This document shows, in pieces, positions 10,849 through 16,542 of a DNA stretch of 64,000 nt. The DNA lies in the NCBI RefSeq assembly GCF_001515525.1, contig NZ_BCNQ01000008.1, forward strand, positions 1 through 64,000, read 5' to 3'. Each line of letters starts with the position of its first letter. Position 1 is the stretch's first letter. The position numbers were made by a program, and so were the translations under genes. The notes below the pieces were generated by a model, which had not been told where the DNA came from, did not search any database, and worked only from the letters and a program-made list of their open reading frames with translations. The DNA is from Piscicoccus intestinalis NBRC 104926 (GTDB lineage: Bacteria; Actinomycetota; Actinomycetes; Actinomycetales; Dermatophilaceae).

Positions 10849-13800
10849 ATGTCGGCCTTGCAGCTGGTTGCGATCCTCCTGAGCTTCACCATCGGAACCG
10901 TCGGATGGGTGCTCTTCTTCCGCGCGATCTTCCGGTACGTGCGGGTGTTCCGTCTGGGCGCAGTCGATGCGTCGCGCACGGATCAACCCACTACCCGCAC
11001 GGTCACGTTGTTGCGGGAGTTCCTCGGTCACACCCGCATGGCTCGACTACCCGCGGTCGCGGTGGCGCACTGGATCACGGCCATCGCCTTCATCGTGCTG
11101 TTCGCCACGCTGGTCAACGCCTTCCTCCAGCTGTTCCAGGCCGAGGCGGTGCTGCCGATCATCGGGCACTTCCCGCCCTTCGAGTGGATCGTCGAGTTGC
11201 TCGCGTGGACCACGGTCTTCGCCATCGGCTACCTCGTCGTCGTGCGCCAGCAGCGGCACCCGCGCAACACCATGCCGCCTCGGCGCAGCCGCTTCTTCGG
11301 GTCGACCTGGTGGCAGGCCTACTACGTCGAGTTCACGATCGCCGCGGTCGGTTTCTGCATCCTCGTGCTGCGCAGTCTCGAAGCGGCGCTCATGCGGATC
11401 GTCGAGCCGCAGCTGAACATCGCGCTGCACTTCCCGCTCACCGGTTGGCTGTCGGGGCTGTGGATGGGCCTGGGCGAGCAGGGCATCCGCGAGGCGATCT
11501 ACCTGTTCGCCATGTTGAAGATCATCGTGTCCTTCGCGTGGATGATCACGGTGGCCCTGACCCCGACGATGGGTGTCGCCTGGCACCGTTTCCTCGCATT
11601 CTTCAACATCTGGTTCAAGCGGCACGCCGACGGGCGCACCTCGCTCGGCGAGCTGCAGCCGATGGTCGTCGATGGCCAGAAGGTCACCGCCGAGAACCTC
11701 GAAGAGGTCATGGACAAGATGGCCGAAGACGAGGACGCCGACGTCGCCATGGGCGTGGGCCGGGTCGAGCAGTTCACCTGGAAGGGCCTGCTCGACTTCA
11801 CGACCTGCACCGAATGCGGCCGCTGCCAGAGCCAGTGCCCGGCCTGGAACACCGACAAGCCGCTCTCCCCCAAGCTCCTCGTCATGACGCTGCGCGACCA
11901 CGCGCACGCCAAGGCGCCGTACCTGCAGGCGACCGAGGAGGAGCGGGCCGCCCTCCCGGAGCACACCCGCGCCCTGGCGGGCGCCCAGCTGGTCGGCTCC
12001 ACCGGTTACAGCGGCGACCACCCGCTCACGGCCTACGACGCGTACGGGCCGGACGCGATCATCGACGACGACGTGCTGTGGTCGTGCACCTCGTGCGGCG
12101 CGTGTGTCGAGCAGTGCCCCGTCGACATCGAGCACGTCGACGCGATCGTCGACATGCGTCGCCACAAGGTGCTCATCGACTCGGCGTTCCCGGCCGAACT
12201 CGGCGGCCTGTTCAAGAACATGGAGTCGCGTCAGAACCCGTGGGGCATGGCGAGCAAGCTGCGCTTGGACTGGGCCAAGGGCCTCGACTTCGACGTGCCG
12301 ATCGTCGGCTCCGACGTCGAGTCGCTGTCCGAGGTCGACTACCTCTTCTGGGTGGGGTGTGCCGGCGCGTACGAAGACCGGGCGAAGAAGACGACGCGGG
12401 CGGTGGCGGAGTTGCTGCACACCGCCGGCGTCTCGTTCGCGGTGCTCGGTGAGGGTGAGGCCTGCACCGGCGACTCGGCCCGGCGAGCCGGCAACGAGAT
12501 CCTCTTCCAGATGCTCGCCGCCCAGAACGTCGAGACCCTCAAGGAGGCGGGTGCGACGAAGATCGTCGTCACCTGCGCCCACTGCTTCAACACGATCCGC
12601 AACGAGTACCCGCAGGTGGGCGGCAACTTCGAGGTCGTGCACCACACCCAGCTGCTGAACCGGCTCGTGCGCGACAAGAAGCTCGTGCCGGTGTCGCGGC
12701 CGTGGAACGCCTCCGCCAAAGACGTCGCGTCCACCGCGGAGACGGTCACCTACCACGACCCGTGCTACCTCGGTCGGCACAACAACGTCTACGCTCCGCC
12801 GCGCGAGCTGCTCGGCGCGCTCCCGGGCGTCGAGCTGCGTGAGATGCCGCGTTCGGGCATGAAGTCGTTCTGCTGCGGCGCCGGCGGCGCGCGCATGTGG
12901 ATGGAGGAGAAGCTCGGCACCCGCATCAACAACAACCGCACCGCGGAGGCGGTGGCCACGGGCGCCGAGCGCATCGCGATCGGCTGCCCGTTCTGCCGGG
13001 TGATGCTCTCCGACGGGCTGACCGCGGCCCAGGCCGACGGGTCCGCACCCGGCAACGTCGAGGTCGTCGACGTCGCGCAGATGCTGCTCGCCGCGGTGCG
13101 GGCACCGGAGAAGACCGAAGAGCCCGCACCGGCCGCGGGCGGATCGTCGGGCGCGACCGCGCTGACCGATGGCGCCGGCGAAACGGCAGAGGTGCCCGGT
13201 GCCCGTCTCGACGAGAACGCCGAGGTCGAGCGCGAGGCGCAGCCCGCCGCGCCGGCCGGAGGGGAGCGGCTGTCGGCGGCCACACGCACCGAGGAGCGTT
13301 CGGCGGCTGCCGCGGCGGCCGGCACGTCCGCGGCCGCTGGAGACGTCGACGACCGTACTCCCACCGAGGCCGACGAGGCGCTCGGCGCCGACGGCGCCGG
13401 TGTCGCCGAGGCGAACACCGACGCACAGCCCGAGCCTCAGGTGGAGCAGCCGGCGCCGAAGGCCCCGTCGCAAGCCGCGGAGTCGACGCAGGCCCCCAAG
13501 GCCGCGGCTGCCGGCGGTGGTGGCAAGGCCATGTCCGCTTCCGACGCGCTCGCCATGATGCGAGCGAAGTCTGCCGATGCGCAGCCAGAGGCGGAGCAAG
13601 CCCCAGCGGCTGAGCCCGAGCCGGAAGCGCAGGCGGCACCCGCGGCCGACACGAAGGCTGAGCCCGAGCCGGACGCGCAGGCGGCACCCGCGGCCGAGAA
13701 GACCGCTGAGCCCGCGGCTCCGGCGGCACCTGTTGCGCCGCGAGGCGACGGCAAGCCCATGTCGGCTACCGATGCGTTGGCGATGCTGCGCGCCCAGTCG

Positions 13801-15027
13801 GGCGCTCCGGCGGGGCAGGCGCCTGCGGAGGCCGAGAAGCCCGCGCAGGCCGAAGAGCCGGTCACGGCTGAGACGCAGGCAGAGACTGAGGAGTCTGCGC
13901 AGGCCGCCGAGGCGGAGAAGGCTGCGGAGCCGACGCCGGACGAGGCCGGGGAGCCGGAAGCCTCCGTTGCCGAACCGGTCGCTAGTGAGTCTGCGCCTGC
14001 TGAGGCCGCGGCTGAGGCGCCGACCGACGCCCCGGCTACCTCGGATGCCCCGTCGGCACCCGCGGCACCGTCGGCACCCGCGGCGAGCGCACCCGCTGCG
14101 TCGGCGACGTCGACCAGACGGGCTCCGTTCCCCAGCGGCGACGGTCGGATCATCCCCGCGTCGGAGGCCCTCGTGATGCTGCGGGAGTACGCCGCCGGCG
14201 GCGGCGCGGCAGCGCCCGAAGAGCCCCAGCAGCCGGAAGCCGTGCAGCCCGCCGAGACGGCGGAGGCTGTCGAGACGCCCGAGGAGCCGCAGGCACGCGA
14301 CGCCGAAGCGCTCGAGGCGCCCCAGGCGGAAGAGACGACCGAGTCGACGGAGGCTGAGCCGTCGGAGCCGGAGGCAGTTGCGACAAAGCAACCCGATCCG
14401 CAGGAAGCGTCCGCAGCCGAAGCGCCCGAGCCGGAGGCTGCGCAGGAGCGCCGTCCGCAGGCGCCCGCACCGGAGCCTCCGGCCGACGCCCTGCCGAAGC
14501 CCGAGGGTGTGCCCACCGCCCGAGAGGCCCTCGCAGGCTTCCTCGGCACGACGGGTGATCAGCCCTCGGACGCCCCCGACGCCGCCCAGTCGTCCGACGG
14601 AGCCCAGGTCCCCGACGCCGCTGAGGCCGCTGAGGCCGCTGAGGCCGCTGAGGCCGCGGAGCCCGCAGAGGCCCGTACGGACACCGCCGAGGCCGAGGAA
14701 TCTGCGCCGGCCGAACCGGCTCCGGAGCCGGCGTCCGAATCGCCCTCTGAGCCGGCGGCCGCAGTGGAGCCGGAGGCTGCAGCACAAGCGTCGGATCCCG
14801 AAGCCGAGTCCGAGTCCGACGCCCAGGCTGAGCCTGAGGCGCCTGCGGTTGCCGAACCTGCGCGCGACGGGGTCGAGGCGGCTCCGGCGGCGCAGGAGGC
14901 GCAGCAGGCCGGATCGCCAGGCAAGGCAGGCAACGCAGGCAACGCGGCGTGGCAGCGCCTCCTCGAGGCGGCGGACGGAAAGACGATCGCCGCGTCGGAG
15001 GCGTTGAAGATCCTCAAGGGCGACTGA
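10849..15027 (+). CDS. Membrane-bound Fe-S oxidoreductase with CCG domains and a long repetitive tail
   Basis: This 1392-residue protein probably passes electrons between a membrane quinone and an unknown partner. The N-terminus has about five or six membrane segments of NarI-like type. Two 4Fe-4S motifs follow near residues 319 and 412 (CTECGRCQSQCP and CTSCGACVEQCP). Two HdrB/GlpC-type CCG segments come next, with FCCGAGG near 674 and IGCPFC near 711. From about 752 to the end the chain is Ala/Glu/Pro-rich and disordered, carrying five copies of a short helical motif. Many actinobacteria have the catalytic part; the tail is the oddity. The ATG at 10849 is chosen because it begins a normal membrane segment. 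The 119 codons before it look non-coding. Confidence 0.85.
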   Translation: MSALQLVAILLSFTIGTVGWVLFFRAIFRYVRVFRLGAVDASRTDQPTTRTVTLLREFLGHTRMARLPAVAVAHWITAIAFIVLFATLVNAFLQLFQAEAVLPIIGHFPPFEWIVELLAWTTVFAIGYLVVVRQQRHPRNTMPPRRSRFFGSTWWQAYYVEFTIAAVGFCILVLRSLEAALMRIVEPQLNIALHFPLTGWLSGLWMGLGEQGIREAIYLFAMLKIIVSFAWMITVALTPTMGVAWHRFLAFFNIWFKRHADGRTSLGELQPMVVDGQKVTAENLEEVMDKMAEDEDADVAMGVGRVEQFTWKGLLDFTTCTECGRCQSQCPAWNTDKPLSPKLLVMTLRDHAHAKAPYLQATEEERAALPEHTRALAGAQLVGSTGYSGDHPLTAYDAYGPDAIIDDDVLWSCTSCGACVEQCPVDIEHVDAIVDMRRHKVLIDSAFPAELGGLFKNMESRQNPWGMASKLRLDWAKGLDFDVPIVGSDVESLSEVDYLFWVGCAGAYEDRAKKTTRAVAELLHTAGVSFAVLGEGEACTGDSARRAGNEILFQMLAAQNVETLKEAGATKIVVTCAHCFNTIRNEYPQVGGNFEVVHHTQLLNRLVRDKKLVPVSRPWNASAKDVASTAETVTYHDPCYLGRHNNVYAPPRELLGALPGVELREMPRSGMKSFCCGAGGARMWMEEKLGTRINNNRTAEAVATGAERIAIGCPFCRVMLSDGLTAAQADGSAPGNVEVVDVAQMLLAAVRAPEKTEEPAPAAGGSSGATALTDGAGETAEVPGARLDENAEVEREAQPAAPAGGERLSAATRTEERSAAAAAAGTSAAAGDVDDRTPTEADEALGADGAGVAEANTDAQPEPQVEQPAPKAPSQAAESTQAPKAAAAGGGGKAMSASDALAMMRAKSADAQPEAEQAPAAEPEPEAQAAPAADTKAEPEPDAQAAPAAEKTAEPAAPAAPVAPRGDGKPMSATDALAMLRAQSGAPAGQAPAEAEKPAQAEEPVTAETQAETEESAQAAEAEKAAEPTPDEAGEPEASVAEPVASESAPAEAAAEAPTDAPATSDAPSAPAAPSAPAASAPAASATSTRRAPFPSGDGRIIPASEALVMLREYAAGGGAAAPEEPQQPEAVQPAETAEAVETPEEPQARDAEALEAPQAEETTESTEAEPSEPEAVATKQPDPQEASAAEAPEPEAAQERRPQAPAPEPPADALPKPEGVPTAREALAGFLGTTGDQPSDAPDAAQSSDGAQVPDAAEAAEAAEAAEAAEPAEARTDTAEAEESAPAEPAPEPASESPSEPAAAVEPEAAAQASDPEAESESDAQAEPEAPAVAEPARDGVEAAPAAQEAQQAGSPGKAGNAGNAAWQRLLEAADGKTIAASEALKILKGD
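13522..15024 (+). repeat. Five spaced copies of a short helical peptide motif
   Basis: Within the tail of the Fe-S oxidoreductase a motif of about 14 residues recurs at residues 892 (GKAMSASDALAMMR), 968 (GKPMSATDALAMLR), 1099 (GRIIPASEALVMLR), 1220 (GVPTAREALAGFLG) and 1377 (GKTIAASEALKILK). Linkers of 60-150 residues are acidic and Pro/Ala-rich. The last copy forms the C-terminus. The motif looks like a repeated docking helix. Confidence 0.8.
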
Positions 15028-15043
15028 GCGCGCGAACGCGGAC

Positions 15044-15076
15044 GGGGCCGGGCACATCGAGCATGTGTCCGGCCCC
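15044..15076 (+). terminator. Terminator after the Fe-S oxidoreductase
   Basis: A 14-bp stem (15044-15057 with 15063-15076, one G-T pair) with a 5-base loop lies 17 bases after the stop. No gene overlaps it. Confidence 0.75.
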
Positions 15077-15243
15077 TGCTGCGTGAGACCACCAATTCGC
15101 AAGAGACTCGTGTGCGACCGCCGCGAACCGGCTCCGCACCGCGTGGTATACCTCTCGCTTGCCAGTGGGATCACGTGGGGCGTCACACGTTTCGCCGCCA
15201 CCCGCCGGCGCTGTGAACCCACGCGACGAAGCACGAGGCAGCA

Positions 15244-16542
15244 ATGACGCACGACGCCCACGCCCCCGCGGCGCGACAGGAACCGATGGGCCGCGTCGCG
15301 GTCGCCAGCCTCATCGGCACGACGATCGAGTTCTTCGACTTCTACGCCTACGGCATCGCCGCCGCCCTCGTGCTCAACACCGTGTTCTTCCCGGAGCTGT
15401 CCGAGACGGCCGGCACCCTCGCGGCGTTCTCGACGTTCGCCGTCGCCTTCCTCGCCCGCCCCATCGGCTCCATGCTGTTCGGGCACTTCGGCGACCGCAT
15501 CGGCCGCAAGTCGGTGCTCATCGTCTCGCTGCTGCTCATGGGCCTGTCGACGGTCGCGATCGGCCTGGTGCCCGACTACGGCAGCATCGGGCTGGCGGCC
15601 GCCGTCATCCTCGTCGTGCTCCGTGTGCTGCAGGGCATCGGCCTCGGCGGCGAATGGGGCGGCGCCGCGCTCCTGGCCACCGAGCACGCCCCGGAGGGCA
15701 AGCGCGGCTTCTACGGCATGTTCCCCCAGCTCGGCCCGGCGGTCGGATTCATCGCCGCCAACGCGGTCTTCCTCGTCGTGCGCCTCAACCAGGACGCGGC
15801 GACGTTCGCCGCCTGGGGCTGGCGCGTGCCGTTCGTCAGCAGCATCGTGCTCGTGCTCATCGGCCTGTGGATCCGCGTGAAGATCTCCGAGACCCCCGTC
15901 TTCCAGCGGGTCATGGACGCCCAGGACCAGGCCCGCATCCCCGTTCTCGACGTCTTCCGGCACGAATGGCGCCACCTGCTCCTCGGAGCCGGTGTCATGA
16001 CGATCCAGTACACGCTCTTCTACACGGCCACGACCTACTGCCTGGCCTACGGCACCCGCACCCTGCGCATCCCGCAGACGACGATGCTCACCCTCACCAT
16101 GCTCGCCGTGCTCGCGCTCGCCGCCGGCACCATCGTCAGTTCACCGCTGAGCGACCGCGTCGGACGCAAGAAGGTCATCGTCACCGCGTGCGCGGCCTCG
16201 ATCGTCTGGGGCCCGGCGATGTTCCCGCTGATGAACACCGGCAACCTCGCCCTCATCTGGCTCGCGCTGGCCGGGGCGCTCGGCATCATGGGCCTGTGCT
16301 TCGGCCCCATGGCCGCGTTCCTGCCCGAGCTGTTCCCCACCCGATTCCGGTACAGCGGAGCCGGCATGGCGTACTCCATCGGCGGCATCCTCGGTGGCTC
16401 GTTGCCGCCGCTGGTCGCCACCGCCCTGCAGGCCGCCTACGGTTCCACCGCCGTCGGGCTGTACGTCGCGGCCGTCGGCGTCATCTCGCTGGCCTGCGCG
16501 CTCGCCGTCCGGGAGACCGTGCACCGCGGCCTCGACCACTGA
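15244..16542 (+). CDS. MHS-type MFS transporter (metabolite:H+ symporter)
   Basis: This 432-residue transporter has twelve predicted membrane segments. MHS-family hallmarks include ASLIGTTIEFFDFYAYG in the first helix and GHFGDRIGRKS between helices 2 and 3. The second half repeats the loop as LSDRVGRKK. GIGLGGEWGGAALL in helix 4 is typical of ShiA/KgtP/ProP relatives. It imports an organic acid, betaine or aromatic acid with protons; the substrate cannot be told. GAGGCAGCA lies just before the ATG. A strong terminator separates it from the gene upstream, and the DinB gene downstream is on the same strand, 81 bases away. Confidence 0.9.
   Translation: MTHDAHAPAARQEPMGRVAVASLIGTTIEFFDFYAYGIAAALVLNTVFFPELSETAGTLAAFSTFAVAFLARPIGSMLFGHFGDRIGRKSVLIVSLLLMGLSTVAIGLVPDYGSIGLAAAVILVVLRVLQGIGLGGEWGGAALLATEHAPEGKRGFYGMFPQLGPAVGFIAANAVFLVVRLNQDAATFAAWGWRVPFVSSIVLVLIGLWIRVKISETPVFQRVMDAQDQARIPVLDVFRHEWRHLLLGAGVMTIQYTLFYTATTYCLAYGTRTLRIPQTTMLTLTMLAVLALAAGTIVSSPLSDRVGRKKVIVTACAASIVWGPAMFPLMNTGNLALIWLALAGALGIMGLCFGPMAAFLPELFPTRFRYSGAGMAYSIGGILGGSLPPLVATALQAAYGSTAVGLYVAAVGVISLACALAVRETVHRGLDH

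Follow-up and report, generated by a model that had tools for sequence, protein, structure and literature searches.

Why does a membrane-bound iron-sulfur enzyme end in several hundred residues of low-complexity sequence in which one short motif keeps returning? The question is raised by an open reading frame (ORF) in the first 64,000 nucleotides (forward strand) of contig NZ_BCNQ01000008.1 of Piscicoccus intestinalis NBRC 104926 (assembly GCF_001515525.1), a stretch called the window below. This ORF encodes EtfD, and its tail carries four copies of a motif, here named ASEAL, that is replaced by other repeated motifs in related lineages. L, G and C numbers are our labels for loci, genomes and contigs.

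EtfD of the window and its tail motif

The ORF (10849-15027, forward strand) encodes 1392 residues, from an ATG at 10849, chosen within a longer open frame, to a stop codon at 15025-15027. By sequence comparison it is an orthologue of EtfD, the actinobacterial membrane protein that accepts electrons from electron transfer flavoprotein (ETF), because it combines 4Fe-4S dicluster domains and two CCG stretches (Pfam), a closest solved relative that is the EtfD of Mycobacterium smegmatis (9OJN; phmmer E = 2.5e-178 to 9ojn_A), 17 Cys and 2 His columns kept in 15/15 aligned EtfD rows, mycobacterial-type EtfDs included, and ETF subunits encoded in the same genome (EtfB and EtfA at G000:C127). EtfD is reported to link acyl-CoA dehydrogenases, via ETF, to menaquinone (PMC8593149, PMC13083937). 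Among the matches listed, the nearest named relative was Kineosphaera limosa, whose best-matching segment is 82% identical. The AlphaFold2 model of the Austwickia homologue, of low mean confidence, starts with five long helices (residues 3-33, 68-96, 109-135, 161-187 and 212-239) and matched 9ojn in Foldseek (E = 1.9e-36, TMt 0.72).

An earlier, sequence-only reading of this DNA had described a membrane Fe-S electron-transfer protein with a disordered tail of about 640 residues and acidic Pro/Ala linkers. The Fe-S body was borne out by Pfam, and the 9OJN match and the conserved Cys columns make the protein an EtfD; the tail was borne out by its composition (Ala 31%, Glu 15% and Pro 13% after residue ~755). 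The start it had given is that of the first motif copy, the tail itself beginning earlier, near 13114. A Pfam search of the tail (13150-15024) returned no family up to E = 1. That reading had counted five copies of the motif. A 15-position profile, for which only four relatives were used (15 units from L006, L014, L009 and L028), finds four in the 625 scanned tail residues (Table 1), with 76, 131 and 278 residues between successive starts; the best window among 20,000 shuffled tails reached 25.8 bits, below the weakest real copy. The additional copy claimed earlier is no match. The 12-position pattern proposed with it is exact in two copies, has one mismatch in another and three in the C-terminal copy, which does close the protein, as had been claimed.

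Table 1. Positions in the window of the parts of EtfD and of its tail motif.
Feature	Positions	Strand	Basis
EtfD folded body	10849..13113	+	Helical N-terminal part, predicted to lie in the membrane; [4Fe-4S] dicluster domain and a pair of CCG domains
Tail of ~640 residues, low in complexity (Ala/Glu/Pro) and presumably disordered	13114..15024	+	Composition
Motif copy 1, GGKAMSASDALAMMR	13519..13563	+	38.7 bits, 0/20,000 shuffles
Motif copy 2, DGKPMSATDALAMLR	13747..13791	+	32.8 bits, 0/20,000 shuffles
Motif copy 3, DGRIIPASEALVMLR	14140..14184	+	26.1 bits, 0/20,000 shuffles
Motif copy 4 in an extended C-terminal unit, NAGNAAWQRLLEAADGKTIAASEALKILKGD, ending the protein	14932..15024	+	Core (from 14974) 28.9 bits, 0/20,000 shuffles
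Extra copy of the sequence-only reading, rejected	14500..14544	+	7/12 mismatches to that reading's pattern; outside the eight best profile windows

The four copies share 41 identical residue pairs (Met and Trp left out), and the same codon is used in 15 of them versus 17.9 expected from the codon usage of the tail, which argues that the copies are old and kept at the protein level, not fresh DNA repeats; the earlier statement that the motif is kept while the linkers drift holds in this sense. This amphipathic helix motif, present four times, is genuine and old, and very probably functional. Among solved structures, a search with it returned nothing below E = 0.72.

When a profile of the ASEAL units was searched in four genomes, the strong matches among those listed lay in the EtfD frame, with one further match (G580:C40, E = 4e-5) in what is likely the rest of the Mobilicoccus EtfD, a protein end (GAWSKVVEAAGGKPIAASEALKILRGE, L240) similar to the unit of window copy 4; the main contigs of K. 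limosa and of Mobilicoccus both end within the EtfD tail. The strongest other match (E = 0.003) was KEMAASEALSMMR in a protein of the window genome that looks MltG-like by eye (L239, G000:C57:17889-17930). A profile of the mycobacterial tail repeat was likewise EtfD-centred in four genomes, its best extra match (L241, E = 0.0016) falling in a frame that shares its DNA with a longer, unrelated one. The possibility that the motif is common to other proteins was rejected, since the matches listed include only these two weak lookalikes.

Two further observations concern the gene and its genome. Beside an open frame that resembles GcvT lies a second, divergent ETF pair (L222, G000:C88), which may serve the oxidation of dimethylglycine or sarcosine; these names were given by eye. 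On the reverse strand, an open frame of 1642 amino acids (11047-15975) runs antisense to nearly the whole EtfD gene and is probably a by-product of GC-rich codon use.

Tail motifs across actinobacterial EtfDs

The sequence-only reading had made much depend on the tails of sister genera, and the outcome is mixed: the ASEAL motif is common to several genera with differing linkers (K. limosa, Mobilicoccus, Austwickia and one metagenome-assembled genome (MAG), L009), but the tail of Arsenicicoccus repeats another motif, DPWD, instead. The units of Austwickia and most of those of L009 are longer, with a W-containing helix upstream, a turn, and then the ASEAL helix. AlphaFold2 modelled the Austwickia units as helix-turn-helix (805-815/823-829, 877-887/895-901 and 953-963/971-979), with a pLDDT of ~80 only for the last; the mean confidence of the models of two full homologues was low (61 and 58), and the DPWD tail had no confident structure. 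The K. limosa tail (L006), whose gene is cut by the contig end, alternates two unit sub-types, STAAHASDAVTAMR and VSASDALAAMR.

Relatives were collected from a scan of named genomes (at least 80 loci), from searches over 3, 198, 393 and 26 genomes, and from fetched stretches, and 217 EtfD frames were read from 219 sequences, 20 of them running off the contig or stretch. Classified by simple patterns, with counts once per body start (194) in brackets, the tails were none in 113 (103), KGLG in 29 (29), DPWD in 23 (19), SLFD in 21 (17), other in 19 (16), ASEAL in 6 (5), SWE in 5 (4) and RFGWA in 1 (1); because long frames were deliberately favoured when fetching, these are not population frequencies. 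DPWD belongs to Knoellia/Phycicoccus, SWE to Janibacter, SLFD to Nocardioidaceae and KGLGIAxGAKRPG (KGLG) to mycobacterial genomes, family and genus names being taken from named loci and the tree described below ("mycobacterial" and "Nocardioidaceae" being inferred from the tree for coded genomes). As read from these frames, EtfD tails of many actinobacterial lineages repeat a lineage-specific motif, the last copy of which usually ends the protein. Five classes of tail hold 2 to 15 copies; tail length varies widely, and some related species have no tail. Some linkers are themselves near-identical repeats.

The C-terminal end was repeated inside the tail at p ≤ 0.01 in 64 of 77 distinct closed tails of at least 60 residues (per tail 500 composition shuffles, so that p cannot fall below 0.002; the best of three word lengths was taken without correction). 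Thirteen tails failed, namely L028, L066, L111 (a broken frame), L115, L152, L153, L168, L169, L175, L184, L186, L197 and that of the window; the window and Austwickia fail because the core of their motif does not reach the end, which is a limit of the test, and L171 passes through low complexity. Measured from the protein end, in tails that are closed, free of masked letters and distinct in their ends, the last copy starts at 4 residues in 16/16 DPWD, 5 in 14/14 SLFD, 3 in 3/3 SWE, 10-11 in 3/3 ASEAL and 14-16 in 26/29 KGLG tails; by pattern, it lies 82-123 residues from the end in the other three KGLG tails and 142 in Kytococcus, the only RFGWA tail. The KGLG profile matches 9OJN alone in the PDB; of the six copies there, the last (1023-1042) closes the 1042-residue chain. 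The Kytococcus EtfD (L066) has its own motif around RFGWA, in five copies by pattern, and a diverged version of it at the C-terminus. In a genus of the SLFD family (g94; L168, L169, L171, L175 and L334-L337), the long tails show no evident repeat and share a near-end stretch, (S/T)(D/E)ANPSG.

In four of the five DPWD genomes searched, the codon pattern of the DPWD C-terminus stands before a true stop a single time, always in EtfD; it was not found in the fifth, whose EtfD frame is open in the data, or in three tail-less genomes, and one further match, in G150, has TGG where the stop would be.

On a quick tree of 108 EtfD bodies (LG+G4, SH-aLRT), the motif labels need 15 changes, a figure that is inflated because the label "other" includes truncated tails. 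ASEAL forms one clade (support 98) and groups with Arsenicicoccus, which has DPWD, as its sister (support 99 for these six). The enclosing clade of 34 bodies holds 18 DPWD, 5 SWE, 5 ASEAL, 4 tail-less and 2 other members, so that, in a single group of genera, one architecture holds different motifs. Two placements are unexpected from the records: the EtfD of L060, titled Acidobacteria, falls among Ornithinimicrobiaceae and is probably from a mis-binned MAG contig, and those of Planosporangium (Micromonosporaceae; L048, L052) fall among Intrasporangiaceae-type sequences, possibly by horizontal transfer.

A candidate partner and the alternatives

We lean towards reading the tail as a multivalent ETF tether. 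EtfD would accept the electrons that ETF has received from acyl-CoA dehydrogenases and hand them to menaquinone. Each of the four short helical hooks on its tail would have a weak affinity for ETF, with the EtfB arm as the likeliest site; this arm consists of the C-terminal strand and helix and belongs to ETF's mobile FAD domain. Several ETFs could thus be kept near the Fe-S entry site, exchanging quickly and still able to visit many dehydrogenases, and the hook sequence would be replaced across lineages while repetition and the C-terminal copy are retained. The sequence-only reading had proposed docking of a soluble redox partner; among the partners it named ETF fits best, and we infer ETF to be what the hooks, four and not five, would hold.

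Consistently with this tether, EtfB is reported to co-precipitate with Mycobacterium tuberculosis EtfD (PMC8593149), and a published AlphaFold3 model suggests an ETF-EtfD interaction via the mycobacterial tail (PMC13083937). EtfB with an adjoining EtfA was sought in 90 genome entries, 89 of which matched (at least 4 duplicates), and their columns were compared in 41 genomes of the broad group of the window (5 ASEAL, 9 DPWD, 4 SWE, 1 Kytococcus and 22 tail-less), from which duplicates had been removed along with several rows that were distant or partial. Residues of the ASEAL clade that are found in ≤3% of the others occupy 8 of 579 EtfA and EtfB columns, and four of the eight lie in EtfB 238-261 (239 E/Q/T to L, 244 E to D, 250 A/E/K/Q/R to V, and 257 A/E/G/Q/S/T to I/L/M/V). 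Apart from Leu261 in a DPWD set, ten other groups, some overlapping, have no such column in this segment. Ranked by frequency difference, four of the top seven columns fall there (P = 7e-5; 0.0016 to 2.4e-5 at other cut-offs), P values that treat columns as equal and are uncorrected for the choice of the segment, which had been picked out by eye beforehand. The segment matches the EtfB arm (235-265 in C. difficile), which lies in mobile domain II with the electron-delivering FAD, as described in PMC5691135 and PMC9232219. Positions 250 and 257 are seven residues apart, as on one helix face, and the three polar-to-hydrophobic changes would suit a newly formed groove that takes up an amphipathic helix.

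Several points weigh against the tether. Since ASEAL is a single clade, the EtfB arm change lies on one branch only, a single event that could be coincidence. In SLFD genomes the EtfB arm carries an insertion in 17/17, and the same insertion occurs in two tail-less Kribbella and in G511, which has no SLFD repeats. SWE shows no arm-specific column among the 41 genomes; in DPWD the arm signal is Leu261 only (7/9 versus 0/32), and the strongest DPWD columns are mostly in EtfA. With 113 of 217 EtfD loci tail-less, transfer cannot depend on a tail in every EtfD, and in the M. smegmatis structure no ETF was seen on EtfD (PMC13083937). The co-change thus supports ETF as the partner in the ASEAL lineage and does not prove it for the others, because the arm change is one event and SLFD and SWE give no specific arm signal. 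The SLFD insertion, considered as a second co-change, was rejected as non-specific; it is also present in G584, whose cut-off tail is labelled "other" by pattern, and missing in eleven SLFD-free members of the family (one of whose tails, L338, is cut off).

The same data bear on what else the hooks might bind. Acyl-CoA or other dehydrogenases, gathered in place of ETF into a beta-oxidation cluster at the membrane, are an unlikely choice, with two points in their favour: ETF must shuttle among many enzymes (PMC13083937), a path that such gathering would shorten, and among the 49 proteins co-precipitated with M. tuberculosis EtfD, eight of them cytoplasmic, was a second flavoprotein, Rv1279 (PMC8593149). 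Yet the accessible text of that report names EtfB and no acyl-CoA dehydrogenase among the eight, and dehydrogenases are so many and diverse that a switch of motif would require many matching changes. The hooks might also bind EtfD itself, or other membrane complexes, and cluster the enzyme in the membrane as stickers on spacers. Motif and receptor, if part of one protein, could change together, and most bulky hydrophobic residues lie near the motifs (in the SLFD tails 362 of the 402, on 1705 of the 6451 residues). We nevertheless regard such clustering as rather improbable, as it leaves the EtfB change unexplained.

The position of the last copy at the very C-terminus, seen in most tails of five classes, would also suit a signal for turnover, assembly or quality control with the inner copies as spare repeats. 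A single end signal needs neither the number of copies per tail nor residues kept while codons differ, and the ASEAL and DPWD searches found no strong matches in other proteins, which makes such a signal very unlikely. Least credible of all is a functionless spacer grown by repeat slippage in GC-rich DNA, for which the variable length, the tail-less relatives and the near-identical linkers would speak, and against which stand motif residues kept against codon drift, their C-terminal placement across classes and a motif common to several genera with different linkers.

Beyond the tether itself, we put forward tentatively, as something we would not count on, that EtfD tails in general are antennae gathering ETF, whose docking code has been replaced wholesale between lineages while the mobile arm of ETF was re-shaped to match.

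Known systems and significance

The closest known system is mycobacterial EtfD (Rv0338c/MSMEG_0690; 9OJN), the same folded enzyme, which likewise has a long disordered tail with interspersed repeats (PMC13083937). The repeats are described there as conserved and the tail as variable in length (citing Szekely 2020), and the EtfD tail has been termed Pro/Ala-rich, repetitive and disordered (PMC11567552). The mycobacterial repeat is basic and glycine-rich, whereas that of the window is an amphipathic helix in four copies on a longer tail, and KGLGIAxGAKRPG is not present in the translated window tail. The mycobacterial-type repeat (L196-L218), KGLGIAAGAKRPG, resembles by eye the KGIMAAKKKP loop of EtfB and might mimic it. 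EtfD tails of Knoellia/Phycicoccus, Janibacter and Nocardioidaceae share the place and architecture of the window tail, the last copy ending every closed tail counted, but the sequences of their DPWD, SWE and SLFD motifs are unrelated to ASEAL, even though Arsenicicoccus (DPWD) is sister to the ASEAL clade.

The pattern of the window tail, several conserved copies on low-complexity spacers, fits a multivalent short-linear-motif tether, for which partner binding is predicted. CsoS2 and EPYC1 are disordered scaffolds with repeated Rubisco-binding motifs; the likeness is one of working, a short motif on spacers that gathers a soluble enzyme, with no kinship claimed, and unlike these scaffolds the EtfD tail belongs to a membrane respiratory enzyme. 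The NWETF tether at the C-terminus of chemoreceptors and the C-terminal tip of SSB are flexible tails ending in a short docking peptide, usually in one terminal copy, to which the EtfD tail adds several inner ones.

The sequence-only reading knew of no description of such an arrangement. For mycobacteria the tail repeats and the AlphaFold3 model of ETF with the tail are already published (PMC13083937). Our literature searches, whose coverage left out most subscription papers, found no account of the other motif classes, of the C-terminal placement or of motif replacement.

Repeated hooks offer a direct and testable explanation of how an ETF shared by many dehydrogenases reaches its acceptor in the membrane, and the tether idea can be tested with natural swaps, namely the hook classes of the different lineages. 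If hook and receptor do change together, they would clearly exemplify, in bacteria, how rapidly motifs can turn over in a complex of central metabolism; a core respiratory step would then rely on a fast-changing, orthogonal set of docking peptides, repeated along the tail and closing the protein.

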